Source: an uncultured Dehalococcoidia bacterium (GTDB lineage: Bacteria; Chloroflexota; Dehalococcoidia; Lucifugimonadales; UBA3495). From it: 64,000 bases of DNA. The notes beneath the pieces are model-generated. The model ran no database searches, was not told the origin of the DNA, and worked only from the letters and a program-made list of their open reading frames with translations. A program made the position numbers and the translations under genes. Positions 45,601 to 61,189 of the stretch are shown one piece after another; positions within the stretch are counted from its first letter, which is position 1; every line of letters begins with the position of its first letter. Location of the stretch: positions 3,464,608-3,528,607 of the forward strand of contig OX638345.1 of NCBI GenBank assembly GCA_951813535.1. The letters are read 5' to 3'.

Positions 45601-48600
45601 ATGGTCGCGTCCGTGCCCGGAGCTGCGTTCAGCCTAATGGTGACTTGCGTCGAGCCTCCCTCAGTCACGGAGTATGTCGAGTACCCGAAGTTGACGGTCA
45701 GTGAGTGCTGGGCAGCCACGTTGCTGATGTTGACCGTCGCCTCACCGTTAGTCCCCGCGCTCACGTCGGTGGGCAGGTTCTCGAAGGCCAGCTTGACGCT
45801 TTCGCCTACGTCCTGCAGGTTGTCCTGGATGGCCCTGACGGTGAAGGTCTGCTCGGTCTCTCCCGACATAAACATGACTCTGGTCGGCACGTCGCTGTAG
45901 TCAGAGTCCGTCGCCCCGTTCTGGTTGGTCTTGGCGATGGGTATGGTCACCGTGCGCTCCGGATCTTCGCTGAGGGACACCGTCACATCCACCGTGCCTC
46001 CCTCGGCGACGGTGTAGGAGGACTCCCCGAAGCTCACCAGGACCGCCGGAAGGTCGCCGTCCCTGATCGAGACTTCGGTCTCTGCGGGGTCGCCCTCCGA
46101 CACGCCGCTGGGCAGGGGGCTGCCGAAGTACAGCTTGACCGTCTCGTCGTCGTCGTTATCGCTGTCGTCCTCCGCCGTGAAGGTGATGGTCTTGGAGGTC
46201 TCAGTGGCCCCGAAGATAAGACTGGTGGCCGAGAGCAAGTAGTCGTCGGCCGTCGCCCCGTTCTGGGGGGACGCGCCGATGGTTATGGTTACCGTGCGCT
46301 CCGGGTCTGCGCTGAGGGTCACCGTCACATCCACAGCGCTCCCCTCCGCGACGGCGTAGGTGGCCTGCCCGAAGCTGACCTTCACCGCCGGGTCGTCATC
46401 GTCGGTGATCGAGACGACGCTCACCTTGGTGGCGCCTTCTGACACGCCGTCCGGCAGGGGACTGCCGAAGGTGAGCTTGACCGTCTCGCCGTCGTCGTTG
46501 GCCGTGTCGTGCTTCGCAGTGAATGTGAAGGTCACCTCCGTGTCCCCGGAGTTGAAGGTCACGTTGGCCGGCACCCCCGAGTAGTCGTCGTCCGTCGCAG
46601 TGCCCTGGTTGGCCTTCTCTATTGGGATGACCACCGTCCGCTCGGGATCGGCGCTCAGGGTGACCTTCACCACCACCTCGTTCTCTTTCTCCACCGTAGT
46701 GGCCGCGTCGTCGCTCTCGGCCACGGTGTAGGCGGAGGCCCCGAAGCTCACGTTCACCGCCGGATCGTCATCGTCGGTGATGGAGACCACGCTCGCGGCG
46801 TTCGTGCTGTCCTCCGACACGCCGTCCGGCAGGGGACTGCCGAAGGTGAGCTTGACCGACTCATTGTCGTCGTCCACAGTGTCGTGGGTCGCGGCGAAGG
46901 TGAAGGTCACCTCCGTGTCCCCGGAGTTGAAGGTCACGTTGGCCGGCACCCCCGAGTAGTCGTCGTCCGTCGCAGTGCCCTGGTTGGCCTTCTCGATTGG
47001 GATGACCACCGCCCGCTCGGGATCGGCGCTCAGCTTCACCGTCACCACCACCTCGTTCTCGGTCACGTCCATGGTCGAGGCGTCGTCGCTCTCGGCCACG
47101 GTGTAGGCGGAGGCCCCGAAGCTCACCGTCACCGACGGTACGTCGGTGATGGAGACCACGCTCTCGGCGATGGCCCCCTTGGTGAGGGTCAACCCGGTGA
47201 TGGTGGGCAGGTCGCCGATGGTCAGCTTGACCGACTCATCGTCGTCGTTCAAAGTGTCGGGGGTGGCGGAGAAAGTGAATGTCTCCTCCGTGTCGCCGCT
47301 GATGAAGGTCACGTCGGCCGGCACGCCCGAGTAGTCGTCGTCCGTCGCAGTGCCCTGATTGGCCTTCTCTATGGGGATGGTCACCGTCCGCTCGGGGTCG
47401 TCGCTCAGGGTCACCTTGACCTCCACCGTGCCTCCCTCGTCCACCGCGTAGGTGGCTGCGTCGAAGCTCACGGTGACCTGCGGCACGTCGTTGTCGGTCA
47501 CGTTGACGGTCACGCTGTCGGCGGCGTAGCCGTTATAGCGGCTATCCGGGGAGGTTACCGTGTGGGTGATCACAGCCGGCTGTTCATCGATCTTGTCCGC
47601 ATCGTGGCTGGCCGATACGGTCACTGTCTGGGGGGTCGAAAAGTCTCTGGGCCTAAAGGTCAACGATGCCGGCGCGGCCGTGATCTCAGTGTTGGTCGGA
47701 TCGTTGATGGTTACTGTAACTATGTTGGTGGGCCTGTTGTCCAACACCACCTGGTAGGTCGACGATGCTCCTTCAACTACCGGTAGGGTAGTCGGCGCCA
47801 CGATCACCCCGTCGTTGTCGATGATGACAACGTCTACCATTGTTACACTAATTAAAGCTGTGTTTTTACCAGAACAGTTCAGTTCGAACGAGAACGACTC
47901 CCTCGGCTCTACCACGCCATCGTCGATGATCTCAACGTCTATGTAAAAGACCTGCCGATATCGCGTCTGGCCTGCGCCGTCAACGAACGCGCTAAAGTTT
48001 TCCGCATTCAACCAGATATCAAAGCCCTCATCGGGATCATAGTCTTCGTGCGGCAAAACGAAATCCATGGATGTTGCGCTGTCAGTCAAAATAGAAATGT
48101 CGACTACGTAGTTTCGAACCGGGATTCGCGAATCGACGGTCACGGCCACGAATCCGATGCGCCCGTCGACCATACCTTCTTGCAGGACCCCATCCTGTGC
48201 TGCGAATTGCATGATCGGATCGTTGTCCCTGGAGAATACTTCCACGTTGCTCACGCTGACCCCGCTCGAGTAGTCCCCGCCTTCTACCTGGTGGCGTATC
48301 ATCGAAAATTCATCCACCTGGTTTGAATCATTCTTAACCTCAACGTTTACCGTCTGAGGAGTGCTCCAGTCATGTGTAGTGAAAGTCAGCGACGAAGGAT
48401 CGATGTTAAGAGGTTGGTGGGGAGGGAACTCGGAAACGGTCGTGGTGTGACTGATATTGACCGTAACGTCCGCAGTGGGCTGGGTATCCAGCGCCACCAT
48501 GTACGTCGCGGTGGTTCCCTCATCGATGGTCAGTACGGTGGGAGCAACCGTAATTCCGGTGGTGGCGAGGTCCCTCACGGTGACGGTCACACTGTCGGCA

Positions 48601-51056
48601 TTCAGCCCGCCATAGACGTCATCGGACGAGGAGCTGACCGTGTGCGAAATGGTGACCCTTGGATTGACGCCGACTTCCGCGTCCAATAACGGCGTTACGG
48701 TCACCTCCTGGGGAATGTTCCAGTTCTGGGACGTGAAGGTAGCGGTCTCTCTGTCCACCGACAGGGCCGTATCGGCGAAGCCGGCGATGGCCACCGTGAC
48801 GCCTCCCTCAGGCTGAGAGTCGAGCGCCACCGCGTAGGTCGAGCTGGTTCCCTCGTCGATGGTCAGCTCAGTGGGAGTCACCGTAACACCGGCGGTCTCA
48901 TCGTCTTCGACGGCGACGGTCAGGCTGGCCGTCAGACCGTCGTAGTCGGTGTCGGCGGCGGAAGAGGCGCTGTGCGAGAGGGCATCGGCTTCGTCAACGG
49001 CGTCATCGTCCTGCGGGGCCGTCACCGTCACCGTCTGCGGCACGCTCCAGTCCTGGTTGGTGAAGGTAAGGACCGCTGGGTCCAGGAGCAGACCGGTACC
49101 GGCTGTGCCCTCGATGGCGACGGTCACCTCCCCCTGTGGCTGGGTGTCCAACGCCACCTCGTAGGAGGTCGATTCCCCTTCCGTAGTCTCGAGGGTGACC
49201 TCGGAGATGGCCACTCCTGGATCGTCGTCGTCCTTGACGGTTACAGTCACGTTGTCGGCGTTCAAGCCGTCATAGTCTGCGTCGGTGGCGCTGACGGTGT
49301 GGGTGATGACGACAGGCTGTTCATCCACTTCGTCAATGTCATGCTCGGCGGTCACGGTCACGGCCTGGGGCAGGTACCAGTCGGTGGGGGTGAAAGTCAA
49401 TGAGCCGGGCTCCGCCGTAACCTCGCCATTGGACGGGTCGTTGATGCTAATCGTGACGTCCCCATCGGGTTGCGTGCCCAGCGCCAGGAGGTAGCTCGAC
49501 GTAGTGCCCTCAGCTACTGAAATGGCCGTCGACGCGACACTCACTCCCACGAAGTCATCGTCGATTATCTCCACCGTTGCGGCAACTTGCGAGAATTCAA
49601 AAAAGCCTGGGCTATGTTCGAACACCACTTCGAAATTCTCCGTCTCTTCCGGAAGGTCATCATTCAAGATGCCAACATGAACATAATAGGTGAACCGATA
49701 GCGTATCTGGCCATCAGCATCCACAAACGGAACGAAATAATCTGGCAACACCCGGTTAGTGTCACTGCTTAAACGGCGATAGTCCAAATCCGATCCGCAA
49801 AGCCCAGCAGTTGCAGTTGACCCTTGGGACGTCGTCGAATATTGGAAGGCTTGGCTCGGTGCACCAGGCTCGGTCGTCTCTATTGTGAACCCAACGCGCA
49901 CCTGGCCCTCATTCTCGACCACCGAATAAACCGTCTCCTCCACTATAAAAGCCAGCTCCGGATCGTCGTCGACTGAGGTTACTTCGACCGTGTCCACGGT
50001 CACGCCGCTTGAGTAGTCCCCGCCCCTCACTTGGTGGCGTATCTCGGCTGCGTTGTCGGTGTAGTCGAAATCTTCTCGGGTACTCACCTCCACCGTTTGG
50101 GCAGTGCTCCAGTTCTGCGTCGTGAAGACCAGCTCGTCAGGCGTAGCCTTGATTGTGAAGTGCCCATCCTTTTCGATCTTTATCGTCACGTCCGCGGTGG
50201 GTTGCGTGTCCAGCACCACCGTGTAATCCGAGCTGTCGCCCTCGTCAATGTTGAGTTCGGTATCGGTAAGAGACAGTGTCACACCCGCGGTTTCGTCGTC
50301 GGCAACGGTTACGGTCACGCCAACGGTGCTCAGTCCTTCGTAGCCGCCGTCTGTCGAAGAGATGGTGTGCGTGAGCCTGGTGGTGTCGGCGGCTCCGTCA
50401 TCGTCCTGTCCCGCCGTTACGGTCACTGCCTGCTCCGTATCCCAGTTCCCGGTGGTGAAGTTTAGGGTCGTATTGCCCAAGGTCAGGTCCGTACCGGCGA
50501 AGCCCCCAACGATAACCGAGACATTGGCGGTAGGCTGGGATTCGAGAACCACCGTGTAGGAGGCCGAGCCGCCTTCGTCGATTTCCAGAGTGGTGGCCGA
50601 TATATGGACTGCCTTGTCGTCGTCAATCACGCTCACGGCCACATCGCTGATGTTGATACCGTCATAATCGCTGTCGGTGGAGGTGACCGTGTGGGTGACG
50701 TCAAACTCCGTTTCGTCGTCTGCATCACTGTCATGGGCGGCGGACAATGTGACAGACTGAGGAGCGTACCAGTTTGAGACGGTGAAGGTCAGCGACCCAG
50801 GGTCGGCTGTAACCTCTGGGTTCGACGGATCGTTTACCGTCACGGTCACGGTATCGGAGGGCTCCGTGTCCAATACCACTGCATACCTCGCGCCGGCTCC
50901 CTCGTCGACAAACAGGTCGGTTGGAATAACCGTAACGCCCGGGGTCATCTGCGCCTGGGCAACCGGGGACTGCAAGAGCCCGTACGCTCCGAACAGTCCC
51001 AGTGCCAGCAGGGCGGCGAGGACCCCAGCCGCCACCTTCTTCCGGCGGGGAATCAC
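42606..51056 (-). CDS. Giant secreted Calx-beta / FnIII / Ig-like surface protein
   Basis: About 2,816 residues from a GTG at 51056, with GAGGG upstream and a signal peptide (RRKKVAAGVLAALLALGLFG ... VAQAQ); an ATG at 51146 without a clear site adds 30 residues. First comes a long tract of repeats of the form IDEGxSxxYxVxLDTQP...ITHTVSSTDxxYDG (~47.5-51.0 kb), then Calx-beta repeats (VDEGGTVEVKVTLSDDPERT; ~45.4-47.5 kb), two PPC-like domains (~44.5-45.3 kb), one FnIII, four or more Ig-like repeats (SGTARVGETL...YSYQW) and a final FnIII. No LPXTG or membrane anchor is seen. It is acidic and probably Ca-binding: an adhesin or matrix protein. The MarR gene and hybrid regulator lie directly upstream. 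Confidence 0.85.
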   Translation of the reverse strand: MIPRRKKVAAGVLAALLALGLFGAYGLLQSPVAQAQMTPGVTVIPTDLFVDEGAGARYAVVLDTEPSDTVTVTVNDPSNPEVTADPGSLTFTVSNWYAPQSVTLSAAHDSDADDETEFDVTHTVTSTDSDYDGINISDVAVSVIDDDKAVHISATTLEIDEGGSASYTVVLESQPTANVSVIVGGFAGTDLTLGNTTLNFTTGNWDTEQAVTVTAGQDDDGAADTTRLTHTISSTDGGYEGLSTVGVTVTVADDETAGVTLSLTDTELNIDEGDSSDYTVVLDTQPTADVTIKIEKDGHFTIKATPDELVFTTQNWSTAQTVEVSTREDFDYTDNAAEIRHQVRGGDYSSGVTVDTVEVTSVDDDPELAFIVEETVYSVVENEGQVRVGFTIETTEPGAPSQAFQYSTTSQGSTATAGLCGSDLDYRRLSSDTNRVLPDYFVPFVDADGQIRYRFTYYVHVGILNDDLPEETENFEVVFEHSPGFFEFSQVAATVEIIDDDFVGVSVASTAISVAEGTTSSYLLALGTQPDGDVTISINDPSNGEVTAEPGSLTFTPTDWYLPQAVTVTAEHDIDEVDEQPVVITHTVSATDADYDGLNADNVTVTVKDDDDPGVAISEVTLETTEGESTSYEVALDTQPQGEVTVAIEGTAGTGLLLDPAVLTFTNQDWSVPQTVTVTAPQDDDAVDEADALSHSASSAADTDYDGLTASLTVAVEDDETAGVTVTPTELTIDEGTSSTYAVALDSQPEGGVTVAIAGFADTALSVDRETATFTSQNWNIPQEVTVTPLLDAEVGVNPRVTISHTVSSSSDDVYGGLNADSVTVTVRDLATTGITVAPTVLTIDEGTTATYMVALDTQPTADVTVNISHTTTVSEFPPHQPLNIDPSSLTFTTHDWSTPQTVNVEVKNDSNQVDEFSMIRHQVEGGDYSSGVSVSNVEVFSRDNDPIMQFAAQDGVLQEGMVDGRIGFVAVTVDSRIPVRNYVVDISILTDSATSMDFVLPHEDYDPDEGFDIWLNAENFSAFVDGAGQTRYRQVFYIDVEIIDDGVVEPRESFSFELNCSGKNTALISVTMVDVVIIDNDGVIVAPTTLPVVEGASSTYQVVLDNRPTNIVTVTINDPTNTEITAAPASLTFRPRDFSTPQTVTVSASHDADKIDEQPAVITHTVTSPDSRYNGYAADSVTVNVTDNDVPQVTVSFDAATYAVDEGGTVEVKVTLSDDPERTVTIPIEKANQGTATDDDYSGVPADVTFISGDTEETFTFSATPDTLNDDDESVKLTIGDLPTITGLTLTKGAIAESVVSITDVPSVTVSFGASAYTVAESDDASTMDVTENEVVVTVKLSADPERAVVIPIEKANQGTATDDDYSGVPANVTFNSGDTEVTFTFAATHDTVDDDNESVKLTFGSPLPDGVSEDSTNAASVVSITDDDDPAVNVSFGASAYTVAESDDAATTVEKENEVVVKVTLSADPERTVVIPIEKANQGTATDDDYSGVPANVTFNSGDTEVTFTFTAKHDTANDDGETVKLTFGSPLPDGVSEGATKVSVVSITDDDDPAVKVSFGQATYAVAEGSAVDVTVTLSADPERTVTITIGASPQNGATADDYLLSATSLIFGATETSKTITFTAEDDSDNDDDETVKLYFGSPLPSGVSEGDPAETEVSIRDGDLPAVLVSFGESSYTVAEGGTVDVTVSLSEDPERTVTIPIAKTNQNGATDSDYSDVPTRVMFMSGETEQTFTVRAIQDNLQDVGESVKLAFENLPTDVSAGTNGEATVNISNVAAQHSLTVNFGYSTYSVTEGGSTQVTIRLNAAPGTDATIQIAATGQGGATTADYSIFPASVTFTGNETEKTITFTANDDSVYDDNETVKLSFVNLPAGVTGGSTAEATVIITDLVGVEPNPEEPTARIKCDNDANRTILLDRVSSIDTPGEKDYWTVELHPIKNYIIEVIGAKDGLDILGQKSYSGELTLEFPDIFAVWNSDRSRRTHEFVTDGDHSHSGGETDHWVVLVKLGTGSPQIEVGSVKGVTGRYQIKVRLNNICDDRDGALVYPWGGGPEGYMPYLDTPGNKSTEWELYATTEPDFRGEVGDGYLGDHGEDEPDEDWFQVDLDEGYEYTFELSADTRSPEKYQATDLKIIGIHDPQGAVIAGTASSGSGESVSVKFTPPANGTYFIAVGSGGNDHTGFYEISVNGSPEGSGQGNQGRGSSGSNKDTKDEQEQAAPSAPRKLSAAANADGSITLTWKAPDTAGVTGYQILRSRPTEGEDTLMIIVEDTGSAQTSYTDTDVTPDVLHVYRVKAINDAGVGERSDKTEVTPLDPTTNTPATGRPKIIGEVRVREKLLAQTSGIKDADGLSKVSYGYQWIAGGSDISGATGSSYTLTKTDEGLTIQVRVKFTDDVGNQETMTSPATEAVAAKPNSPATGAPTISGTARVGETLSADTSGISDDDGLTNVSYSYQWLAGGTDLSGATGSTYTLTASEQGKTLRVRVSFTDDARTDESLTSAATDEVEPAVQPQKANSQATGEPTISGTARVGETLTANISTIADDDGLEDATFSYQWIRNDGASDTDIAGASGSTYTLDAEDEGKTIRVRVSFTDDADNEETLTSAATAAVAAKPNSPATGEPTISGTARVGETLTANTSGITDDDGLTNVSYSYQWLAGGTDLSGATGSTYTLTAAEQGKTVQVRVSFTDDRGYSETVTSGATAAVAAPEPPAKPTGLSTASVSHNTVTIIWDDPQDDSITGYVILRRDPEIHPSGTFITLTSNTGAADTNYTDDTVEPEKQYVYRIQAINKHGVVSERSGWVRADTPAAPAG
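46525..47000. repeat. Near-identical 375-bp coding repeats in Calx-beta tract
   Basis: The sequence starting GTGAAGGTCACCTCCGTGTC occurs at 46525 and 46900, 375 bases (125 codons) apart, and stays almost identical for about 90-100 bases. It is one of several DNA-level repeats in this gene and points to recent repeat expansion. Confidence 0.8.
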
Positions 51057-51210
51057 CGCTGTGCCGCCCTCACTCAGGCGGCAAACTGCTCTCGATAGAA
51101 TTAACCGCAGGCCACCGGGGCCCGCCCTCCCAACACGCATCTTCATTCTCTGACTCTCTGCCGTCCTTCTTCAGGGTTCGTGCCGCGTCCGGTTCGGACG
51201 CGTTGCCGCG

Positions 51211-51717
51211 CTACTGTGGCGGTCCGATCTGTGGGGGATTCTGTTGCACCAGGTCCGCGTAGTTCGACATGACGGTCGAGGTGACGGACATCAGGACCGC
51301 GATCTCATGCTCGCCGACACCCTGGCACAGGCCGGCCTCGAATGCCTGGACACGTCCGTACAGCTCTCGCGTCACGGCCGTGCCCGCTTCGGTCAAAGTC
51401 AGGATGACGATCCTCCGGTCGCTGAGCAGGCGTCGCCTCTGGATAAAGCCCCGGTACACCAGCTTGTTGACCGTGCGGCTGATGCTCGACGGAGCGAGCG
51501 GTACCACCCGGGCCAGCTGGGTCGTAGTCCACTCCTCGACTTCCAGAAAGAGCCTCAGGAGCGCGTAATCGATGTGGGTAAGATCGTTGTCGGCCGCTAT
51601 CTGCGCCGTTCCCCGGGACAGGGCGTTGACCAGCTGGTTCACACACGGCCCCAAAACGGAGGCCGATGTCACCCCCCGCGTTTCGAATGACGTCTCTGAC
51701 TCTGTTTCTGAATCCAT
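51211..51717 (-). CDS. MarR-family transcriptional regulator
   Basis: A 168-residue protein with a MarR winged helix. The N-terminal helix is VNQLVNALSRGTAQIAADND, then THIDYALLRLFLEVEEWTTT, the recognition helix region LAPSSISRTVNKLVYRGFIQ, a wing with the conserved DRR (RRRLLSDRRIVILTLTEAG), and a C-terminal dimerisation helix. It would bind a palindromic operator and respond to a small ligand. It lies between the hybrid regulator and the giant surface gene on the same strand, so control of either is plausible. TAGGGA adjoins the ATG rather than sitting at the usual distance. Confidence 0.88.
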   Translation of the reverse strand: MDSETESETSFETRGVTSASVLGPCVNQLVNALSRGTAQIAADNDLTHIDYALLRLFLEVEEWTTTQLARVVPLAPSSISRTVNKLVYRGFIQRRRLLSDRRIVILTLTEAGTAVTRELYGRVQAFEAGLCQGVGEHEIAVLMSVTSTVMSNYADLVQQNPPQIGPPQ

Positions 51718-52073: not shown

Positions 52074-54434
52074 CTATGTGCTCGAACTCCTGGCCATGCG
52101 GTAGCCCACGCCGAGTTCGGTGAAGATGTACTCCGGGTGTGCGGCGTCGTCACCCAGCTTGCGTCGAAGCTCCTTGACATACGTCCGCAAGATCCGTGAG
52201 TCGGTGGAGTGCAGCGGTCCCCAGACCCGTCTCAACAGCTGTTCGTGGGTCAACGCACGCCCGGAAGCCGTCGAGAGCTCGGTCAGCAGCCTGTACTCGG
52301 TCGCGCTCAGATGCACTGCGTGGCCGGCGATGCTCACCTCGCGCTCGGCGTAGTTGATGGAAAGGTCGCCGCTCTGATACTGCCCGGAGGTTTCCCTCGA
52401 TCCCGCGGCGGACCTCCTCCGCAGGGCCACGTCGATCCTCGCCAGCAACTCCGTGGCGGTGAATGGCTTGGCGATGTAGTCGAAAGCGCCGAGCTCGAAT
52501 GCGCGGCCAATCTGCCGCTCCCATCCGGGACCGGCCACGAAGATGATCGGCGCGTCGGAGATCCTCGTCACCTGGGCCAGCATCTCGAAACCGTCCGCCC
52601 GGGGCAGCGTGGGTTCCAGGATGACCACATGGGGGTCCTTATCCGCTATGATCAGTTCGACTTCATCGGGGTCGCTCGCTACCAACGGGATGAATCCGGC
52701 CTGCGAAATGGTGTTCCGGAGGTATCTTTGAGTCGCCGGGTTGTCGCCGACCGCCAGTATGCGCGCCCGCGCTCCAAGAGGGTCGCGATTGGACGGCGCC
52801 GTTGCCGGTTCTCGTGATTGGGCTGCCTCATCGACCAATGGGACCGTGAAAGTGACGCTGCCGCGGCGGTCCCCTTCACCATCCTCGACGGATAGGCGGC
52901 TCCCGTGTGCTTCGACTATCCCCGCGCAGACCGCTAGGCTCAGGTCCTCCCGTCCGTTGCCGGCGACTCTCGAATTGCCATGTGGCCGACGAGGCGTCAG
53001 GAGTGTTGGCGTGTCGGTTCCCTCGACATGCACCGTAACCGCAATTAACGGGTCTCTCCGAGCAACGTCGATCTTCACGACGGACGATCCGGGCGTGTAA
53101 CCAGCGGCGCGGGCGAGGAGGATGTCGAGGACCTGCAGGATTCGTCGCCGGTCTATCATGACCCTGGGGAGCCCGGAAGGAAGGGCGATCTCGACGAGAT
53201 TGGTGGCCGTACTGGTGTGGACTCGTGCCTCTCTCGCTTCCTCCAGCAGGTCCGCCAGCTCCGTGGGTTCCGGTCTTACCGACAGCGTCCCGGATTCGAT
53301 ATGCGTCATGTCGACCAGGTCGTTGATCAGCTGACGCATCTGGTCCGACTGTTCGTCGATCACTCTCAGGAACTGGCGGGTTTCGTCGGGGCCGAGCGGG
53401 TTGGGAGAGCCGAGCAGGGTGGACGTCGAACCCTTGATGGCGCTCAGTGGCGTGCGCAGCTCGTGGCTCAGGTTTTGCAGGAACTCCGCCCGCTGCCTCT
53501 TCACCGCCTCCAACGGCGTGATGTCCTGGATGGTGGCGACGACGGACTCGACCTCCCCGTCGTCCCGGCGGATAGGCCTGGCGTTGATGAGCGTCGTAAT
53601 GGCCTGTCCGTTCGGCAGATGGATGACAACCTCATCAGCGAACACGTTCTCGCCGGCCGTCAGCGCTCTGATGACGGGAATCTCCTCAATCGGGATGTCG
53701 CTGCCGTCCGCCCTGCGTAACGCCACTACCTTCGTGATTTCCTCCAGCGTTCTGCCCGTCTGATTCAGACTGCCAAAAACCCGCCGGGTCTCGTCATTGG
53801 CCTTTACCAGCACTCCCGTCTTTCCGTCGAAGACCAGTACTCCCACTGGAGAAATATTGAGCAGGGCCTCCAAATCGGCCCTTGCCCGGTGCTCCTCCCG
53901 GTATCTTCGCGCGTTGGCAATCGCGGAACCCGCCTGGGAGGCGAACATCACCAGGACATCTTCGTCCTCGGCGGTAAAGTCCCGGCCCCCATCCTTCTCC
54001 GCCAGGTAGATGTTGCCGACGTGCTCACCGAAATGGTGTATGGGCATTCCCAGGAAGGTCTTCATCGGCGGGTGGTTTTCGGGGAATCCGACGGAGCCGG
54101 GATGACTGGCTATCTCGCTGAGCCTCAGGGGTTCTCGGATCTCGTTCAAGTGTCCGAGCAGTCCTCGGCCCTGAGGCAGGACGTTCATCGCCTCGATCTC
54201 CTGGGGGGAGAGTCCGGATGTGATGAAGTCCTGAATGCTCCCGGACGGCTGGTAGGTGAGGAGCGCGCCGTACCGGGCGCCGGTCAGGTAGCGGGCGTTG
54301 TCGATAACTTCTTGGAGGACAACGTTGACGTCGAGATGCTGGCTGACGCGGCAACTTGCCTCGCTCAGCTTGGAGAGCAACGCTCTCAGAGATTCAATTT
54401 CCCGCCGCAGGTCGCCGGCTCCTCGGCGCGTCAT
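52074..54434 (-). CDS. Hybrid sensor: GAF-PAS-kinase-like-REC-winged helix in one chain
   Basis: About 786 residues from the ATG at 54434; a TTG at 54455 is possible. In order: an N-terminal helix; a GAF domain (~30-180; RYGALLTYQPSGSIQDFITS); a PAS domain (~185-300; SPVGVLVFDGKTGVLVKAND); HisKA with the phospho-acceptor (NLSHELRTPLSAIKG, ~315); an ATPase-like domain (~400-520); a receiver (~545-660); and an OmpR/PhoB winged helix (~680-780; RILRTYVKELRRKLGDD ... GVGYRM). The ATPase domain lacks a normal N-box (LLARAAGYTP) and the DxGxG box, and the receiver has Glu at the phospho-Asp site (VVILEPTLP). Signal transfer may therefore be non-canonical. Lies directly upstream of the MarR gene. 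Confidence 0.88.
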   Translation of the reverse strand: MTRRGAGDLRREIESLRALLSKLSEASCRVSQHLDVNVVLQEVIDNARYLTGARYGALLTYQPSGSIQDFITSGLSPQEIEAMNVLPQGRGLLGHLNEIREPLRLSEIASHPGSVGFPENHPPMKTFLGMPIHHFGEHVGNIYLAEKDGGRDFTAEDEDVLVMFASQAGSAIANARRYREEHRARADLEALLNISPVGVLVFDGKTGVLVKANDETRRVFGSLNQTGRTLEEITKVVALRRADGSDIPIEEIPVIRALTAGENVFADEVVIHLPNGQAITTLINARPIRRDDGEVESVVATIQDITPLEAVKRQRAEFLQNLSHELRTPLSAIKGSTSTLLGSPNPLGPDETRQFLRVIDEQSDQMRQLINDLVDMTHIESGTLSVRPEPTELADLLEEAREARVHTSTATNLVEIALPSGLPRVMIDRRRILQVLDILLARAAGYTPGSSVVKIDVARRDPLIAVTVHVEGTDTPTLLTPRRPHGNSRVAGNGREDLSLAVCAGIVEAHGSRLSVEDGEGDRRGSVTFTVPLVDEAAQSREPATAPSNRDPLGARARILAVGDNPATQRYLRNTISQAGFIPLVASDPDEVELIIADKDPHVVILEPTLPRADGFEMLAQVTRISDAPIIFVAGPGWERQIGRAFELGAFDYIAKPFTATELLARIDVALRRRSAAGSRETSGQYQSGDLSINYAEREVSIAGHAVHLSATEYRLLTELSTASGRALTHEQLLRRVWGPLHSTDSRILRTYVKELRRKLGDDAAHPEYIFTELGVGYRMARSSST

Positions 54435-54640
54435 TTCAATTCGACCTAATGCCAAGGTAAACTCCGCCGGTCGGCAAGGCGGCCCTCCCGGCGCGCCTGG
54501 AGAGGCACGGTTGAACCCGGGCTTCCGGTCGGCGGGCCGGTTGCCCCGCTTCCCTCGCGGCTCGAAGCACCAATGCAGGTCTCCCTTCGACGAGTTGGGC
54601 GATTTCTTGCCGTATTCCTCACCGTAAGCAAACGCCTGCG

Positions 54641-55344
54641 TCAGCGGGTTACGTTGATCGTGTGGCTCTTGGTAGTCATTTCGTCAGCTGCGGTGATGGT
54701 GATCTCGTTGTCGCCCGGGCTGAGGTCGACCCTGTCGTTGGTGACCGACGAGTCGGTGTCGGCCGTGATGGTGTAGGTCGCAAAGAGGTTGCTCACCTTG
54801 GGCGTGAGCGTAATCGTGGACGTATCTGAGGGCACGGCGAGACCATAGGCGACCGTGTCGCTCGCGAAGTCCGGCGAGAGGGTGCTAACGCTGGTCTCCA
54901 GCGCCAGAAGGTCGGCGCTATTTCGACACGGCGACTCCATCGGCGGCAGCCGGCTGGCCAGGTGCTCGTTGTCCGCGCCCCAGCAGGCGAACGGAGCTCG
55001 ATCCAAGGAGATCATCGTGTACCAGAGCGTGTCGTTATCGGGCACATTTTTCAGGTGAGGGAAGAAAGTGCTGCCAACCCGGGTCTGATCGTTGGGTTTG
55101 TTCCAGGAGGTGACGGTCCCATCGGCCTTGAGGCCGCATATCCCTGTGCTGTAGCCATGTCGACCATCTGGAACTCGTCGCCAGCGGGCGTAGGGCTGGG
55201 GAAGTGGTAGGCGTTTCTCGGGTACCAATCGTGCTTCTTTTTCCACTGCCAGCAGTACAGGGTGTCGTCGGCAGCCCGGATCCCGCACCCATTCCGCCCC
55301 CGGCGCCAATGTGCTGGTACGCAACGTCGGAATAGGGGGTCCAT
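54641..55344 (-). pseudogene. 5'-truncated secreted protein with RCC1-like and cadherin-like parts
   Basis: RCC1-type strands appear in two frames: NGCGIRAADDTLYCWQWKKK and SPTPAGDEFQMVDMATA (to ~55150), then after a one-base shift ICGLKADGTVTSWNKPNDQT and MISLDRAPFACWGADNEHLA. A C-terminal cadherin-like beta-sandwich follows (SDTVAYGLAVPSDTSTITLT, VDLSPGDNEITITAADEMTT), ending TGA. No start or signal peptide remains. It lies just after the end of the related 1,702-residue gene and may be a paralogue's tail. Confidence 0.6.
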
Positions 55345-55399
55345 CTCTATGGCGGCGAAGCCCCATCTCCTGTTATCTCCCCTCCAGCCCTACGACGCG

Positions 55400-58300
55400 T
55401 CAGCTGAGACGGTTTACGATCACGGTGTAGGTGGCGGAGTCGGCGCCGTTGGTCACCGTGATGGTGATCGTGTTGTTGCCCGGGCTAAGGCTCACCTGGT
55501 ATCCGTCTGTGCCGGTGTCGTTGTCGTCGGGGTCGATGTCCACGCTCGAGGTGTCGAACGCCGCTTCTGCCGTGACTGTTACAGAGGCGGTGGCGCTCGG
55601 CACCTGCACCGTGTACGCCCGGCGGCCGCTGGAGAAAACGAAGCTGACCCCCGACAGCTCCAAGGAACTCAACAGCGGACTTTCCGGCATGTTGAATGCA
55701 TGGAGCTCGTTGCTCCCGTCGTATATCCACATAGTGGTCCCGTCGGACCATGCGCTCTGTGGGTGCGAGATTTCCGCGGTCTGAAGAGAGCCGCGGCTGA
55801 TGTCTAGATCGGTCCTACGGTCGCCGGTGGCCAAGTCGTAGGCGAGCACATTGTTGTCAAATAGGCCGGATACCCACATGGTGGTTCCGTCGGACCACAG
55901 ATCCCGGGCCCAATGATTGCCGGTTGCCGAAAGAGCTATGTCGCTGTCCGGAACACGGTCGCCGGTGGCCAGGTCGTAGGCGTACAACTTGTGGTTAGCC
56001 CAACCGACAACCCACATGATGATTCCGTTGGACCATAGACCCTGCAGGCAATAGACATTGACGGCGATGTCGCGGCTTGCCATTCGGTCGCCGGTGGCCA
56101 AGTCGTAGGCGTACACCTTTTTGTCATAGAAGTCGGATACCCACATGATGATTCCGTCGGACCACAGACCCCCTGGCTCGGAGATGCCGGATGCCGAAAG
56201 ATTGTTTATGTCGCTGCCCGGAACACGGTCGCCGGTGGCCAAGTCGTAGGCGAGGATCTTCCGCTGCGACCGGTCGACCGCCCACAGCGTGGTGCGGTCA
56301 GACCAAATCCCCTCAAGATCCGGGTCGTTCTCCAACGTGATGTCTTTGGTGTAGTTCCAATCGAAGGCGGCGTCCGAGGCCCGGATTACGGTGATGATGT
56401 AGCTCTTGACCTGGGTCCCGTCGGTCGACTCCACGGTGACTACTATCTTGGTGACGACCCCGGTGAGGTGCACCTGATGGCCGGTGGCGTCGCCGTCGTC
56501 GTCGTCGGGGTCGATGTCCACTTCAGAGCCGGAGACGGCGGGCGTGGCCGTGATCGTGGTGGCGACCACGCTGTCGGCGACATAGGCCCGGTACTCGCGC
56601 GTGGCAGCGTCGAAGGCGCCGATGTCGATGCCCGACAGCGACAGCGCGCTCAGATTGGCGTCTCCGGAGAGCATCGCAAAGCCTGTCCGGGTGACGGTGA
56701 GGGTATAGGTGGCAGTGTTGGCGCCGTTGGTCACCGTCACGGTGATCGTGTTGTCGCCCGGGCTAAGGTTCACCTGGCTTCCTAACGTACCGGCGTCAGC
56801 GTCGTCGGGGTCGATGTCCACGCTCGAGGTGGCGAACCCCGCTTCTGCCGTGACCGTCACAGAGGCGGTCGTGCTCGGCACCCGCACCGTGTACGCCCGG
56901 CGGCCGCTGGAGAACAAGAAGCTGGCCCCCGACAGCTCCAAGGAACGCAACAGCGGAGTTTGCGGCATGTTGAACGCGTGGAGCTCGTCATTGTTTGCGT
57001 CGCTTATCCACATAGTGGTCCCGTCGGACCATACGCCCTTGGGCCGATAGCTTCCCCTGGACTCAAGAGAGGCCCTGCTGATGCCCAGATCAGCCCTTAG
57101 GGCGCCGGTGGCGAGATCATAGGCGCGCACCTGGCTGCCCCTGACCAAGTCATATTTGACCACCCACAGGGTGGTCCCATCAGACCACAGATCCCGGGCA
57201 CGAGAGAAATTTAGGGGTATGTCGGCGCCCGGTGCGCGGTCGCCGGTGGCCAGGTCGTAGGCGTACACTTTTCGCTCACCCCAACTGGCAAACCACAGGG
57301 TGGTCCCGTCGGACCACAGACCCTGGGAGCACTCGTCCCCGACGCCGATGTCGCGGCTTGGCCTTCGGTCGCCGGTGGCCAAGTCGTAGGCGTACACCTT
57401 CTCGGCATGGCAGTCGGATACCCACATGATGATTCCGTCGGACCACAGGCCCCGTGGCTCGGAGTTGCCGGATGCCTGAAGTTTGTTTATGTCGCTGTCC
57501 GGAACACGGTCGCCGGTGGCCAAGTCGTAGGCGAGGATCTTCCGCTGCGACCGGCTGACCGCCCACAACGTGGTGCGGTCAGACCAAATCCCCTCAAGAT
57601 TCGGGTTGTTCTCCAACGTGATGTCTCTGGTGGGGTTCCAATGGAAGGCGGCGTCCGAGACCCGGGTGACGGTAATGGTGTAGCTGGTCATCTGGCCGCC
57701 TGAACTGGCGACAACCGTGATGGCGGTCTCCGAGCCGGGACCGCCCAGCGCGACCTGGATCCCGGGATTGATCGTGTCGCGGTCGACCGGCGCCGAGGTG
57801 ACTGATGCTCCGCCGCTGCCCGTCGCGTTGACCGTCACCTCCGACACGTCGTGGTCCACCGTGGCGGTAAAGTCGTAGGCGCCGGGCCCGAACGGCGGCA
57901 CCAGGTCCGTTGACGAGACGCTCAGTTCACTCAATGCGGGAGGGTCGTTGCGAGACAAGATGCTGCGGGCCGAGCGTGCCGGCACGGTGCGCGTGTCACG
58001 CACCTGCGCGTCGTTCGGCGGAGTCGAAGTCCTGGTGATGAGTGTCAGGTAGAGGCTCTGGCTCAGCCCATCGGCGGAGGTGACCCGCACGATCACCAGC
58101 GTGTCCCCGGTCTCGGAGAGCCGGACCTGGCGCCCAGCCACGTTGGGGTCCGCGTCGTCTTCGTCCACCACCAGGCCCTTGGCGCCGGCGCGCACTACGA
58201 ACACCTCCACCGTGGCGCCGGTGTCGGAGCGGCTGGCCACCACAGTGGTCTGCGACTCGCCCGTGGGTGCGGGCAGCTCATAGCGGATCTGTTGGTCGTC

Positions 58301-60508
58301 GAAGTCCAGCGTTCCCAGTCCGGTCAGCTGCATGTCGTTCAGCGTCGACGAGACGTCCCCGGCCGCCGACGCCTCGCTGACCACCAGCCAATAGCGCACC
58401 ACCGTAGCGCCGTCGGGCGCCGTCACGGCCACCGAGATGGTGGTCTCCGCTCCTGCCGACAGCGCGACCTGATGGCCCACGGCGGACAGGTCCGCATCCT
58501 CGGGAATGATAGATACCGTCGCGCCCTCCGCGGACCGGGACGCCTCGGCGTGCACGGTGATTTGCGACCCCCCGGACGCAGCCTGGGCGGTATACAGCGT
58601 CTCGAGCGGATCGAAGGCCGTGTCCATCACGGCGCCGTCTACGGCCAGCGATGCCAGCGAGGCGTCCGCAAGCTGGGCGGCCATTGTGGCGGGCCCAGGC
58701 ACCGTCAATGTGGGATGGTAATGCAGACCATCGCCGTCGCCGCTGCAGATGGCGCCCTGCTCCTGGCAGCCGGCCGCCTTGTACAGAGAGACACCCACGT
58801 CGGCGTCTGAATCCGGCTCCACGGTGATCAGCCAGGCCTTACCTCCGGACACGCGTTGTACCTTTTTGACGGTTCCTCCGTCGACCACCAGGCCGTGATG
58901 CCTGAGGCCCTCGTCCGTGATGGCGACGTCCCCGGTGAAGTTGAGCCTGAACTCAAGAGTGTCTACTCCGTTGTGATCGCTCGGTATATTCGAAAAATAC
59001 GCGGTGGGCGGCGCCTGCTCTCGCGTCGGAAGCGGCGCTTGGTCCATCGTTAGACTCACATCGACCGTCTCGCCCGGCGTCCAGCTGAAACCCCTGTCTC
59101 CCCACCAGTAGCTGCCCGGCCACCTGGCCGGCTGAATCGAACTGTCGCGGCCCGCGTACTCGTAGTCGCCAATTCGCAGTATGAAGTCCGACGGCAGCTC
59201 CCGGTTCACCGCGAAGAACAGGCCTTCGGCCAAGTGGAACACGTAAGCGACCACGTAGGTGGTCCCGTCCAGCGTGAACTCCGCCGGAGCAAGATCCGTA
59301 TCCTGAATGACCTGCCTGGAGTATCCGGTGGCGACGGGCGCCAGGGTCTCGGTCTTACCCACGGTCAGCGTAGCCGACCACTCCGGTATGACCTGGTCCG
59401 TTGACACGCTCTCCAGACCTCCGTGTGTATAGCCTGCGCGGTCGGTGTAAGACACGCGCACTTTGACCCAGCGCCCTGAATCCGCCGCCGTAAGGGTGTA
59501 TTCGGAGTTCGTCGCCCCCGCGATGTCCCGGTCGGTCGAGCCATCGAGCCAGACCCACTGGTGCTGGAACTTCACACGGTCCAGACCGTTCGCGTCGGCA
59601 ATGCCTGACGTGTCCGCGGTGAGCGTATTGCCCACCTCTGCAGTTCCGTTGATGACAGGGTGTCCCGTTGGCGCTGCGTTGCCTGGCCGCTCACGGTCTT
59701 TGGCGTCTGATTGGTCGGTGCTGGACATGAACAACCATTGGGACCAGTCCGAAGTGCCGATTTCATTGCTGGCGCGCACCCTGAAATTGTAGGAAGCATC
59801 CTCATGCTGCAATCCACTTACGACGGCCCCCGCACCGTACAGTGCGACCTCCACGCTGCCGTGGGGCAGGTCGATGTGATCTCCGGTCTGCGCATCGTAG
59901 AGTTGAACCTCGTAATGGTCCGCTCCCGGTACCTCATTCCACTGCAGGTCGACTCCACCCTGGAAAATCGCCTCCCCGGTGAGGTCCTGCGGCGTGCCGA
60001 GGCTCGATGACTGTGATCGCTCCCGGGTCGGATTGGGCGTCGGTTCGGGCTCAGGTGTGGGGGTGGGCTCGGCCGACGGGAGGGTCACGTTGGCCAGGTT
60101 CGACATTTTGCTCACCTGGTCGCCCCGCAGCGCCTTGACCCGGTAGTTGTACTGCTCCCCGGCAACGGTGGCGTCTTTATCGGTGTAGGAGGTTGCAGTC
60201 GAACCGGTGTCGGCCACGACGACCGTCGGTTTCGGCTCTCCCTGCCGGGGCAGACGGCGCAGGACCTGGTAACCGGTCACCGACTCAGCGTCCTCGGCGG
60301 GAGCTTCCCAGCTGAGCTTCACACCCTTCTCTGGGATGATCTCCGCGGTCAGGTTCCGTGGCTTCGTCGAGTCGCTCTGCGCCTGGGCTGGCCCGACCAG
60401 GGTCAACGCCATCACGGCGACGATCAATCCCACCACGACCAACGCCGGAAAGATTGCCCGCAGGGGCCATGGAACAGATTGCAGACGCGCTTTAATACCA
60501 GCCTCCAT
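55400..60508 (-). CDS. Large secreted FnIII / Ig-like / cadherin-like / beta-propeller protein
   Basis: 1,702 residues from the ATG at 60508, with AAGGA 6 bases upstream, followed by a signal peptide (AIFPALVVVGLIVAVMALTL). Domains in order: FnIII, a Pro/Thr linker, a second FnIII, an Ig-like domain (NGTAEVGNTLTADTSGIADA), a beta-rich region, and several cadherin-like beta-sandwich domains (ending in VTVTR-type strands). Two similar cassettes follow, each with five or six propeller blades of the form LWSDGTTMWVSD...VYAYDLATGDR plus a cadherin-like domain. No C-terminal anchor is seen. Such proteins act in adhesion or glycan and protein binding. The two propeller cassettes are close duplicates about 1.28 kb apart. 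Confidence 0.85.
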   Translation of the reverse strand: MEAGIKARLQSVPWPLRAIFPALVVVGLIVAVMALTLVGPAQAQSDSTKPRNLTAEIIPEKGVKLSWEAPAEDAESVTGYQVLRRLPRQGEPKPTVVVADTGSTATSYTDKDATVAGEQYNYRVKALRGDQVSKMSNLANVTLPSAEPTPTPEPEPTPNPTRERSQSSSLGTPQDLTGEAIFQGGVDLQWNEVPGADHYEVQLYDAQTGDHIDLPHGSVEVALYGAGAVVSGLQHEDASYNFRVRASNEIGTSDWSQWLFMSSTDQSDAKDRERPGNAAPTGHPVINGTAEVGNTLTADTSGIADANGLDRVKFQHQWVWLDGSTDRDIAGATNSEYTLTAADSGRWVKVRVSYTDRAGYTHGGLESVSTDQVIPEWSATLTVGKTETLAPVATGYSRQVIQDTDLAPAEFTLDGTTYVVAYVFHLAEGLFFAVNRELPSDFILRIGDYEYAGRDSSIQPARWPGSYWWGDRGFSWTPGETVDVSLTMDQAPLPTREQAPPTAYFSNIPSDHNGVDTLEFRLNFTGDVAITDEGLRHHGLVVDGGTVKKVQRVSGGKAWLITVEPDSDADVGVSLYKAAGCQEQGAICSGDGDGLHYHPTLTVPGPATMAAQLADASLASLAVDGAVMDTAFDPLETLYTAQAASGGSQITVHAEASRSAEGATVSIIPEDADLSAVGHQVALSAGAETTISVAVTAPDGATVVRYWLVVSEASAAGDVSSTLNDMQLTGLGTLDFDDQQIRYELPAPTGESQTTVVASRSDTGATVEVFVVRAGAKGLVVDEDDADPNVAGRQVRLSETGDTLVIVRVTSADGLSQSLYLTLITRTSTPPNDAQVRDTRTVPARSARSILSRNDPPALSELSVSSTDLVPPFGPGAYDFTATVDHDVSEVTVNATGSGGASVTSAPVDRDTINPGIQVALGGPGSETAITVVASSGGQMTSYTITVTRVSDAAFHWNPTRDITLENNPNLEGIWSDRTTLWAVSRSQRKILAYDLATGDRVPDSDINKLQASGNSEPRGLWSDGIIMWVSDCHAEKVYAYDLATGDRRPSRDIGVGDECSQGLWSDGTTLWFASWGERKVYAYDLATGDRAPGADIPLNFSRARDLWSDGTTLWVVKYDLVRGSQVRAYDLATGALRADLGISRASLESRGSYRPKGVWSDGTTMWISDANNDELHAFNMPQTPLLRSLELSGASFLFSSGRRAYTVRVPSTTASVTVTAEAGFATSSVDIDPDDADAGTLGSQVNLSPGDNTITVTVTNGANTATYTLTVTRTGFAMLSGDANLSALSLSGIDIGAFDAATREYRAYVADSVVATTITATPAVSGSEVDIDPDDDDGDATGHQVHLTGVVTKIVVTVESTDGTQVKSYIITVIRASDAAFDWNYTKDITLENDPDLEGIWSDRTTLWAVDRSQRKILAYDLATGDRVPGSDINNLSASGISEPGGLWSDGIIMWVSDFYDKKVYAYDLATGDRMASRDIAVNVYCLQGLWSNGIIMWVVGWANHKLYAYDLATGDRVPDSDIALSATGNHWARDLWSDGTTMWVSGLFDNNVLAYDLATGDRRTDLDISRGSLQTAEISHPQSAWSDGTTMWIYDGSNELHAFNMPESPLLSSLELSGVSFVFSSGRRAYTVQVPSATASVTVTAEAAFDTSSVDIDPDDNDTGTDGYQVSLSPGNNTITITVTNGADSATYTVIVNRLS

Positions 60509-61189
60509 GCCCGTCCTTAGTGGATATGTGGAGCGAACGCCGAGGCTGCTCCCAGACATCGACACCAACGATAGGCCGGGGGACTAGGGATGTGCGTTGC
60601 AGCAGTGTGATATTTGGGGGATTATTTATGCAGTTCGTATGACGCCGATGCTGACGAGCACCGTTTCCACCGTAGGGAAGTAACCCTTTGGGTCGCGCCG
60701 AATGTCGAAGGCACAGCAAGACCGAACGATAGCCAACCCGGGTGTGAGTACGCCTCAGCCATCCCCTCCGACCCCAGTAGCGCCTTTCTTCGTAGTATCA
60801 ACCGGGATATTGCCAAGCGTTTTGACCATGACCACCGCCAAGACGACGGCAGCAACCCGACCTGGCTGTGGTGACGGTAGGTTGGTTAGCCTGTCGTCGC
60901 GCCGGAGGAGTCGGCGCAATCAGCTCCGGTGTGGGTTATGGGGAACCGTAAACAAACCTATCTATTGACGCGGGGGCGTTGACGGGACGAATTGCACGGC
61001 CTTTTGGGTTGGCCCGACGGTCTAACCGTGCGTATCGTCGTCCGCAGGGTGAGGCCGTCTCCCGGCTCCCATCCAGAGCCCATCGCGAACGATAGGTGTC
61101 GCGCTTTCATCGCTCACCGGAAGGACGACACACCGGGAAACTGCTCGAATACCGAAGCTGCTACCTACTGCGCGGTTGCGGATTGTGTC
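60509..61189. other. Intergenic stretch, no gene recognised
   Basis: About 680 bases between the large surface gene and the IS21 remnant. It should hold the promoter of the surface gene; frames here are not protein-like. Confidence 0.4.

Follow-up and report, generated by a model that had tools for sequence, protein, structure and literature searches.

A one-chain sensor, receiver and DNA-binding protein from Dehalococcoidia with pseudo-kinase and pseudo-receiver domains, and a related branch of candidate selenocysteine regulators

The window analyzed here is a 64,000-nucleotide stretch from an uncultured Dehalococcoidia bacterium (contig OX638345.1 of assembly GCA_951813535.1, positions 3,464,608 to 3,528,607 of the forward strand), and the gene under study, designated P0001, lies on its minus strand. 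P0001 is probably a hybrid histidine-kinase/response-regulator chain that has been turned into a phosphorylation-independent, one-chain transcription regulator. We infer its loss of kinase activity, its control by a ligand and its target. Two orthologues (L163 and L164) together with P0001 (L001) are designated the “Glu trio”, after the residue found in place of the receiver's phospho-Asp.

The open frame begins with an ATG at 54434, and an in-frame TTG lies at 54455. A first-pass annotation had described GAF, PAS, HisKA with an intact His, an ATPase-like domain, a receiver (REC) and an OmpR-type winged helix-turn-helix (wHTH) on one chain, and Pfam and alignment confirmed these domains within one frame, in the order GAF-PAS-HisKA-HATPase-REC-wHTH. 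Matches were obtained at residues 36-172 (GAF), 196-306 (PAS), 314-382 (HisKA, 70.6 bits), 428-533 (HATPase_c), 559-667 (Response_reg, 61.8 bits for a cut-off of 30.2, so that the receiver is recognized by its profile) and 705-780 (Trans_reg_C). The HATPase_c score of 26.6 bits was barely above the cut-off of 26.4; the two orthologues scored 39.5 and 36.4 bits, and four intact family members that were scanned scored 84.8-102 bits. Among the best 25 of 130 NCBIfam models matched, none reached its cut-off, the top one being KdpE (141 versus 325). The features of the gene, all on the minus strand, are as follows.

52074 to 54434, minus strand: P0001 gene, one-chain regulator; 786-amino acid open frame plus stop (at 52074), six Pfam domains, orthologues L163 and L164
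53916 to 54335, minus strand: GAF domain, residues 34-173; Pfam GAF_2/GAF, 73-78% identity in the Glu trio
54291 to 54293, minus strand: Arg48 codon CGC, at a GAF column that is TGA in some homologues; alignment of 90
53517 to 53876, minus strand: PAS domain, residues 187-306; Pfam PAS_9 and PAS_4
53289 to 53495, minus strand: HisKA dimerization/phosphoacceptor domain with SHELRTPL intact; Pfam HisKA, retained in all three of the trio
53463 to 53465, minus strand: His324 codon CAC; alignment
52836 to 53153, minus strand: degenerate HATPase_c domain; low Pfam score, with N-box, D-box and G2 residues lost
53109 to 53111, minus strand: Arg442 codon at the N-box Asn position; alignment
52434 to 52760, minus strand: pseudo-receiver, residues 559-667; Pfam Response_reg, active-site losses
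52614 to 52616, minus strand: Glu607 codon GAA at the phospho-Asp position; alignment
52533 to 52535, minus strand: Ala634 codon at the Ser/Thr switch position; alignment, Ala in all three of the trio
52095 to 52322, minus strand: OmpR-type winged helix, Trans_reg_C; Pfam 72.5 bits, 74-75% identity in the trio

The same genome also carries, ∼15 kb from P0001, a partial N-terminal copy (L009, C1:3533830-3534030) with 82% identity to residues 7-73.

Relay residues were read by alignment against intact homologues. The phospho-acceptor His324 is retained in P0001. The N-box Asn is replaced by Arg442, the D-box DxGxG reads V470-E-G472-T-D474 (Asp and the second Gly lost, the first Gly retained), and the G2 box TGLGL has become EDLSL; judged by motifs only, the N, D/G1 and G2 boxes lack what a competent ATPase requires. 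In the receiver, VDDD has become VGDN, with Gly563 replacing one Asp of the acidic pair and Asp564 retained, while the phospho-Asp position is occupied by Glu607, the Ser/Thr switch by Ala634, and Lys656 is kept. This receiver lacks what phosphorylation requires and fits the description of a pseudo-receiver by its loss of key phosphotransfer residues. The losses of the N-box Asn and DxGxG and the Glu in place of the receiver Asp, as first annotated, are thus borne out, with the first D-box Gly surviving; Ala634 and Gly563 are additional to that account. Because its ATP-binding motifs are lost and it has no receiver Asp, P0001 should be unable to run its own relay.

Relatives of P0001 were searched throughout the order (250 genomes, its own included, E≤1e-208). 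Two orthologues were recovered, L163 (61% identity) and L164 (59%), each in another family of the order. In a tree of 90 sequences the three form a single clade with support of 1.0. SHELRTPL, His324, Glu607, Pro608, Ala634 and Lys656 are common to all of them, and Tyr653 is also retained; the D-box Asp (470), the second D-box Gly (474) and the first G2 Gly (497) are lost in all, and the acidic pair differs (GD, VA and CH). Glu is found at position 607 in four of the 90 homologues (L001, L002, L163 and L164), and homologues more distant than the two orthologues (≤49% identity) are mostly intact. Since both orthologues share the key receiver changes, the substitutions of P0001 are not due to chance. 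This state is thus kept across three taxonomic families, which favors control of DNA binding without phosphotransfer.

It was also considered that P0001 might be a pseudogene on its way out, the alternative for which close homologues with an intact kinase and Asp had been proposed as the sign; the two closest homologues share Glu607, Ala634 and the loss of the D-box Asp. Local decay had been suggested by a tree of 83 sequences, in which P0001 stands on a long branch, N442R is private and D607E is shared only with a distant paralogue, L002, but that reading was overturned by the order-wide search. The open 786-amino acid frame and the presence of the same receiver changes in orthologues of two other families also speak against it, as do ratios of nonsynonymous to synonymous substitution rates (dN/dS) of 0.08-0.40 in the trio for all domain comparisons that could be computed (two could not). 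Decay is therefore largely refuted and should be considered highly improbable.

Constraint within the trio is distributed unevenly among the domains. Identities were 0.73-0.78 for GAF, 0.64-0.80 for HisKA and 0.74-0.75 for the winged helix, versus 0.43-0.45 for the ATPase domain and 0.50-0.60 for the receiver. For comparison we used 995 pairs of like overall identity drawn from 54 intact members, for which mean identities were 0.48 (GAF), 0.58 (PAS), 0.65 (HisKA), 0.65 (ATPase), 0.65 (receiver) and 0.55 (winged helix). ATPase minus GAF identity was −0.28 to −0.35 in the trio, versus a mean of +0.17 (standard deviation 0.075, minimum −0.08) for the intact pairs. Values of dN/dS were 0.11-0.19 for GAF (residues 49-173), 0.08-0.14 for the wHTH, 0.26-0.29 for the receiver and 0.37-0.40 for the ATPase domain. 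Constraint on GAF and on the winged helix argues for a P0001 that still senses and still binds DNA. Since the ATPase ratio is below 1, that domain retains some constrained role. Thirteen domain residues are fixed in the trio and occur in <5% of the other 87 sequences; six of these, including D607E and S634A, lie in the receiver, which points to re-specialization as well as decay.

The receiver changes bear on a second alternative, in which Glu607 imitates phospho-Asp and locks an active dimer, so that the protein is always on and is regulated only by its own level. Glu is present in all three members along with Lys656 and Tyr653; according to the available sections of PMC12632262, Glu is the commonest residue at this site in Asp-less receivers and can partly activate many response regulators, although the idea has been disproved in some cases. 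In all three, however, Ala replaces the Ser/Thr that would partner the phosphoryl group, so that the switch hydroxyl is gone, and the acidic pair is broken; moreover, an always-on protein would not need a strongly conserved GAF domain. A constitutive phosphomimic is therefore unlikely, and the proposal that Glu mimics the active state, made in the first-pass annotation, is unproven and is weakened by Ala634. Glu607 as a full explanation was dropped as a lead, Ala634 being equally fixed.

The retained HisKA bears on a third alternative, in which an intact paralogue phosphorylates His324 in trans and the phosphate passes to the paralogue's receiver, with P0001 acting as an allosteric subunit of a heterodimer. 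His324 and the HisKA core are retained in the whole trio, the genome holds six full-length paralogues, two of which (L003 and L004) have intact relay residues, and locus L196 has a divergent upstream paralogue that is intact over the available stretch (its receiver runs off the end). P0001 itself, however, has no acceptor Asp, and paralogues that are 41-45% identical are of uncertain dimer compatibility. The conservation of HisKA could also reflect its part as the dimer hinge. Cross-talk of this kind is decidedly unlikely.

Several observations weigh against phosphorylation-independent control. The residue at the N-box varies among the trio (Arg, Ser and Asn, the Asn being retained in L164), the first D-box Gly is retained in two of the three, and L163 keeps the second G2 Gly; thus, where conservation of both noted substitutions had been the suggested check, Glu607 passes and the N-box loss does not, and the latter was dropped as a hallmark. 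Only three of the 250 order genomes, its own included, hold an orthologue of the P0001 type, and no further one (>49% identity, E≤1e-195) was found among 393 genomes of the class, a set that overlaps that of the order. PAS identities for the three pairs were 0.68, 0.39 and 0.40, so that this domain has diverged in two of them. Several dS values underlying the trio ratios are near saturation, and the ATPase ratio, near 0.4, falls below 1. The main loose end is His324, kept with SHELRTPL in all three, in a HisKA domain that scores as high as in intact members; another kinase might phosphorylate this residue.

For P0001 as a phosphorylation-independent regulator, the following mechanism is proposed. 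Either a small molecule or the redox state would be sensed by the GAF domain, and perhaps by PAS. A conformational change would carry the signal along the coiled HisKA dimer and across the ATPase domain, presumed to be catalytically dead. The pseudo-receiver, whose pocket holds Glu607 and Lys656 and cannot take phosphate on Asp, may serve as a dimer platform, and the winged helix would then bind DNA. Ligand control by GAF/PAS without phosphotransfer, as first suggested, gains from a state kept in three families but loses where PAS is concerned; because PAS conservation is low in two of the three pairs, a shared signal would more likely enter by GAF. The likely target would be an adjoining giant Calx-beta gene together with the cluster of P0001 itself, the neighbors being as follows.

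51211 to 51717, minus strand: MarR-type regulator, next downstream of P0001; Pfam MarR, BLASTP
42606 to 51146, minus strand: giant Calx-beta/fn3 protein, 2846 amino acids, downstream; Pfam Calx-beta in 6 stretches, proposed target
54641 to 55366, minus strand: cadherin-like protein, 241 amino acids, upstream; Pfam Cadherin-like
55400 to 60568, minus strand: giant cadherin-like/fn3 protein, 1722 amino acids, upstream; Pfam Cadherin-like in 5 stretches

Genes for two giant repetitive proteins (Calx-beta/fn3 and cadherin-like/fn3), likewise on the minus strand, thus lie on either side of P0001 and MarR. In all three members of the trio the regulator has a giant Calx-beta gene downstream on its own strand, and in two a MarR gene stands between regulator and giant. 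At L196 a MarR gene with 54% identity to that of the window comes directly after the orthologue, ahead of a Calx-beta giant of at least 2103 amino acids; at L195 a DegV gene takes this place, and a Calx-beta giant of at least 2404 amino acids comes after it. The giants of L195 and L196 are alike (46% over 2156 aligned positions, most of the length compared). As a control, flanks of 1-1.5 kb per locus (less near contig ends) were searched at 89 loci, and giant-like matches were found at seven: five of the 86 loci outside the trio, and two trio loci, the giants of which had themselves served as queries. The giant of the third trio member starts 1.7 kb away, beyond these flanks. The link is diminished by the five matches at loci outside the trio, by DegV, not MarR, as the next neighbor of L163, and by the window's own giant, which is only distantly like that of L195 (24% over 766 amino acids) and gave no match to that of L196 among the 20 matches listed. 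The link between P0001 and the giant gene, resting on three cases, should be considered suggestive.

One-chain regulators of the hybrid two-component system (HTCS) type in Bacteroides have an AraC-type output. That of P0001 is of OmpR type, and unlike the Bacteroides proteins it has lost its ATPase and receiver active sites. In the available sections of PMC11253607, HTCS proteins are single chains that join a sensor kinase to a receiver and a DNA-binding domain; P0001 resembles them in carrying sensor, HisKA, ATPase, receiver and DNA-binding domain on one polypeptide and in its paralogous expansion. The sensors described there are membrane sensors; P0001 has GAF and PAS domains. Pseudo-receivers, or aspartate-less receivers, without key phosphotransfer residues are exemplified by NblR and JadR1 (PMC12632262, available sections) and also by ChxR. 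Among the replacements that these sections call common are Glu at the D position and Ala at the T position, both carried by P0001. They also give Asn at the second acidic position, which P0001 does not have, Asp564 being retained and the other Asp of the pair replaced by Gly563. Unlike NblR, JadR1 and ChxR, P0001 has its pseudo-receiver in one chain with a pseudo-kinase and a GAF-PAS sensor, which leaves the entire relay of a single molecule out of action. CikA and ShkA, as there described, likewise have HisKA and a pseudo-receiver in one chain, but they retain an active kinase controlled by the pseudo-receiver, whereas P0001 is without kinase motifs and has a DNA-binding output. Remarkably little is known about how pseudo-receivers work outside plants, according to that part of PMC12632262.

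The wider family was collected from 60 genomes, the bacterium's own included, at E≤1e-60, and relatives were found in 23, with up to 14 matches each. Matches spanning query residues <45 to >770 gave 83 full-length sequences, the window's own included; eleven loci with shorter pieces (L068, L119, L120 and L125-L132) and five partial matches were left out. Seven order-level sequences (L163-L169) were added for the alignment of 90, the class-level sequences L171-L192 being left out. Note that similarity to P0001 was the basis for choosing the 90, which are not an unbiased sample. Scanning the named genome contigs yielded 26 partial relatives and no full-length one. The bacterium's own genome, a single contig of 4.38 Mb, has seven full-length copies, P0001 and the six paralogues; L003 and L004 retain His, N-box, D-box, G2 and receiver Asp.

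Most of the 90 have an intact relay, 54 of them fitting a strict pattern that calls for His, the Asn of the N-box, a Gly in each of the D-box and G2 box, and the receiver's acidic pair, Asp, Ser/Thr and Lys. On the tree, loss of the His (29 sequences) takes at least 8 changes, loss of the N-box Asn (22 sequences) at least 2 and loss of the receiver Asp (5 sequences) at least 3, so that the relay has been disabled repeatedly in the family. A clade of 20 (L055, L047, L062, L116, the four of the L005 group, L075 and the 11 of a TGA group described below) is without the N-box and retains the receiver Asp in every member; P0001 falls outside it. L002, from the same genome as P0001, has Glu at the receiver Asp site, which is still Asp in L097, L102 and L110, its close relatives; L002 gained its Glu independently of P0001. 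These four form a separate clade with Tyr for the phospho-His and the N-box retained. The clade of L005, L096, L109 and L113, with Gln at the His site, His at the N-box, the receiver Asp retained and Leu at the switch, is another degenerate-kinase branch, with one member in the bacterium's own genome.

P0001 is a second, separate relay-dead branch, apart from a TGA branch that lies outside the window and is the more surprising of the two. An in-frame TGA occupies the GAF column of P0001 residue 48 in nine genes from seven genomes of the genus: the tandem pair L006 and L007 (L193:7323 and 9876; C1:1817214-1822145 of the bacterium's own genome) and seven genes of six other genomes (L067, L114, L118 with two, L121, L122 and L124). 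Across all 90 sequences the column is most commonly Arg (63, P0001 among them), followed by Cys (16), TGA (9) and Ser (2). The TGA clade of 11 comprises the nine with TGA, one with Cys (L115, which forms a sister pair with L114) and one with Ser (L123); none of the 11 keeps the phospho-His, which is replaced by Glu or Ala, and all 11 have Cys at the receiver switch, a residue seen there in none of the 79 others. With an additional in-frame TAG, L122 may be a broken gene. A wHTH-only match (L011, C1:1826346-1826636, 58%) lies near the tandem pair of the bacterium's own genome. This pair and that of genome G001 adjoin the same NHL-repeat gene (97% identical). Between L006 and L007 the proportion of synonymous differences (pS) is 0.06 5′ of the TGA and 0.47 in the rest of GAF, which resembles gene conversion of the N-terminal part.

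Insertion of selenocysteine (Sec) at these TGA codons is very likely, the sequence evidence being strong. An in-frame ATG, preceded by AGGA or AGGAGG, lies 54 codons 5′ of the TGA in L006 and L007, and dN/dS 5′ of the TGA is 0.16-0.56 in eight of nine pairs (1.15, with few changes, for L006-L007). Among 646 twelve-codon windows, which overlap and so are not independent, the 12 lowest for synonymous differences start at residues 41-52 (0.16-0.25 versus a gene mean of 0.45); in the 79 non-TGA members the same columns are ordinary (window at 49, 0.53 versus 0.49, rank 515 of 774). Directly 3′ of the TGA lies a consensus hairpin, a candidate SECIS-type element. Four of its outer pairs break in one to three of the nine genes; at one base pair both partners have changed in two genes, and pairing is lost in a third. 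Its folding energy is modestly low and is weak evidence alone (mean z −1.15 versus −0.13 in 81 others; 7-25% of shuffles as low per gene). The bacterium's own genome has SelA, SelB, SelD and tRNA-Sec (over the cut-off, anticodon tca). Presence or absence of SelB was uninformative as a test of the clade, SelB being found in 207 of 250 order genomes. The SelD (L200, C1:1105770-1106690) scored over the cut-off with one in-frame TGA, in HCAG-TGA-AAK, presumably at the usual Cys/Sec site of SelD, and is a probable selenoprotein itself.

The TGA branch, and not P0001, shares with bacterial selenoproteins an in-frame TGA with Cys homologues, Sec machinery and, less surely, a hairpin directly after the TGA, as set out in the available parts of PMC9312934 and PMC12013277. 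Most bacterial selenoproteins are thought to act in redox reactions (PMC9312934, a 2022 review, available part); in the TGA branch the codon lies in the GAF sensor of a predicted transcription regulator. As the nearest cases, that review tabulates a putative FmdB-family regulatory protein as a selenoprotein, and one unverified Sec “histidine kinase” is named for a deltaproteobacterial genome (PMC8318568, available part). The terms “histidine kinase” and “GAF” gave no match in the accessible text of PMC9312934 and PMC12013277, the accessible part of PMC2702500 held nothing on a Sec kinase or regulator, and no Sec-containing transcription regulator was found in open-licence PubMed Central (PMC) literature on selenium by titles and the starts of abstracts of the papers listed. 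A sensing role for Sec in this branch could go either way. That the family has repeatedly turned phosphorelay regulators into phosphate-free switches, and that in one relay-dead branch Sec in GAF forms a selenium-based sensor of redox state or metal with direct control over transcription, is advanced tentatively, as a reading slightly more apt to fail than to hold.

The family spans, even in a single genome, a natural series that starts with an intact one-chain phosphorelay and ends with chains in which kinase and receiver are both degenerate while the sensor and DNA-binding ends remain under selection. How a GAF signal reaches DNA without phosphate is thereby made testable. If confirmed, the TGA branch would represent a conserved selenocysteine-containing transcription regulator.

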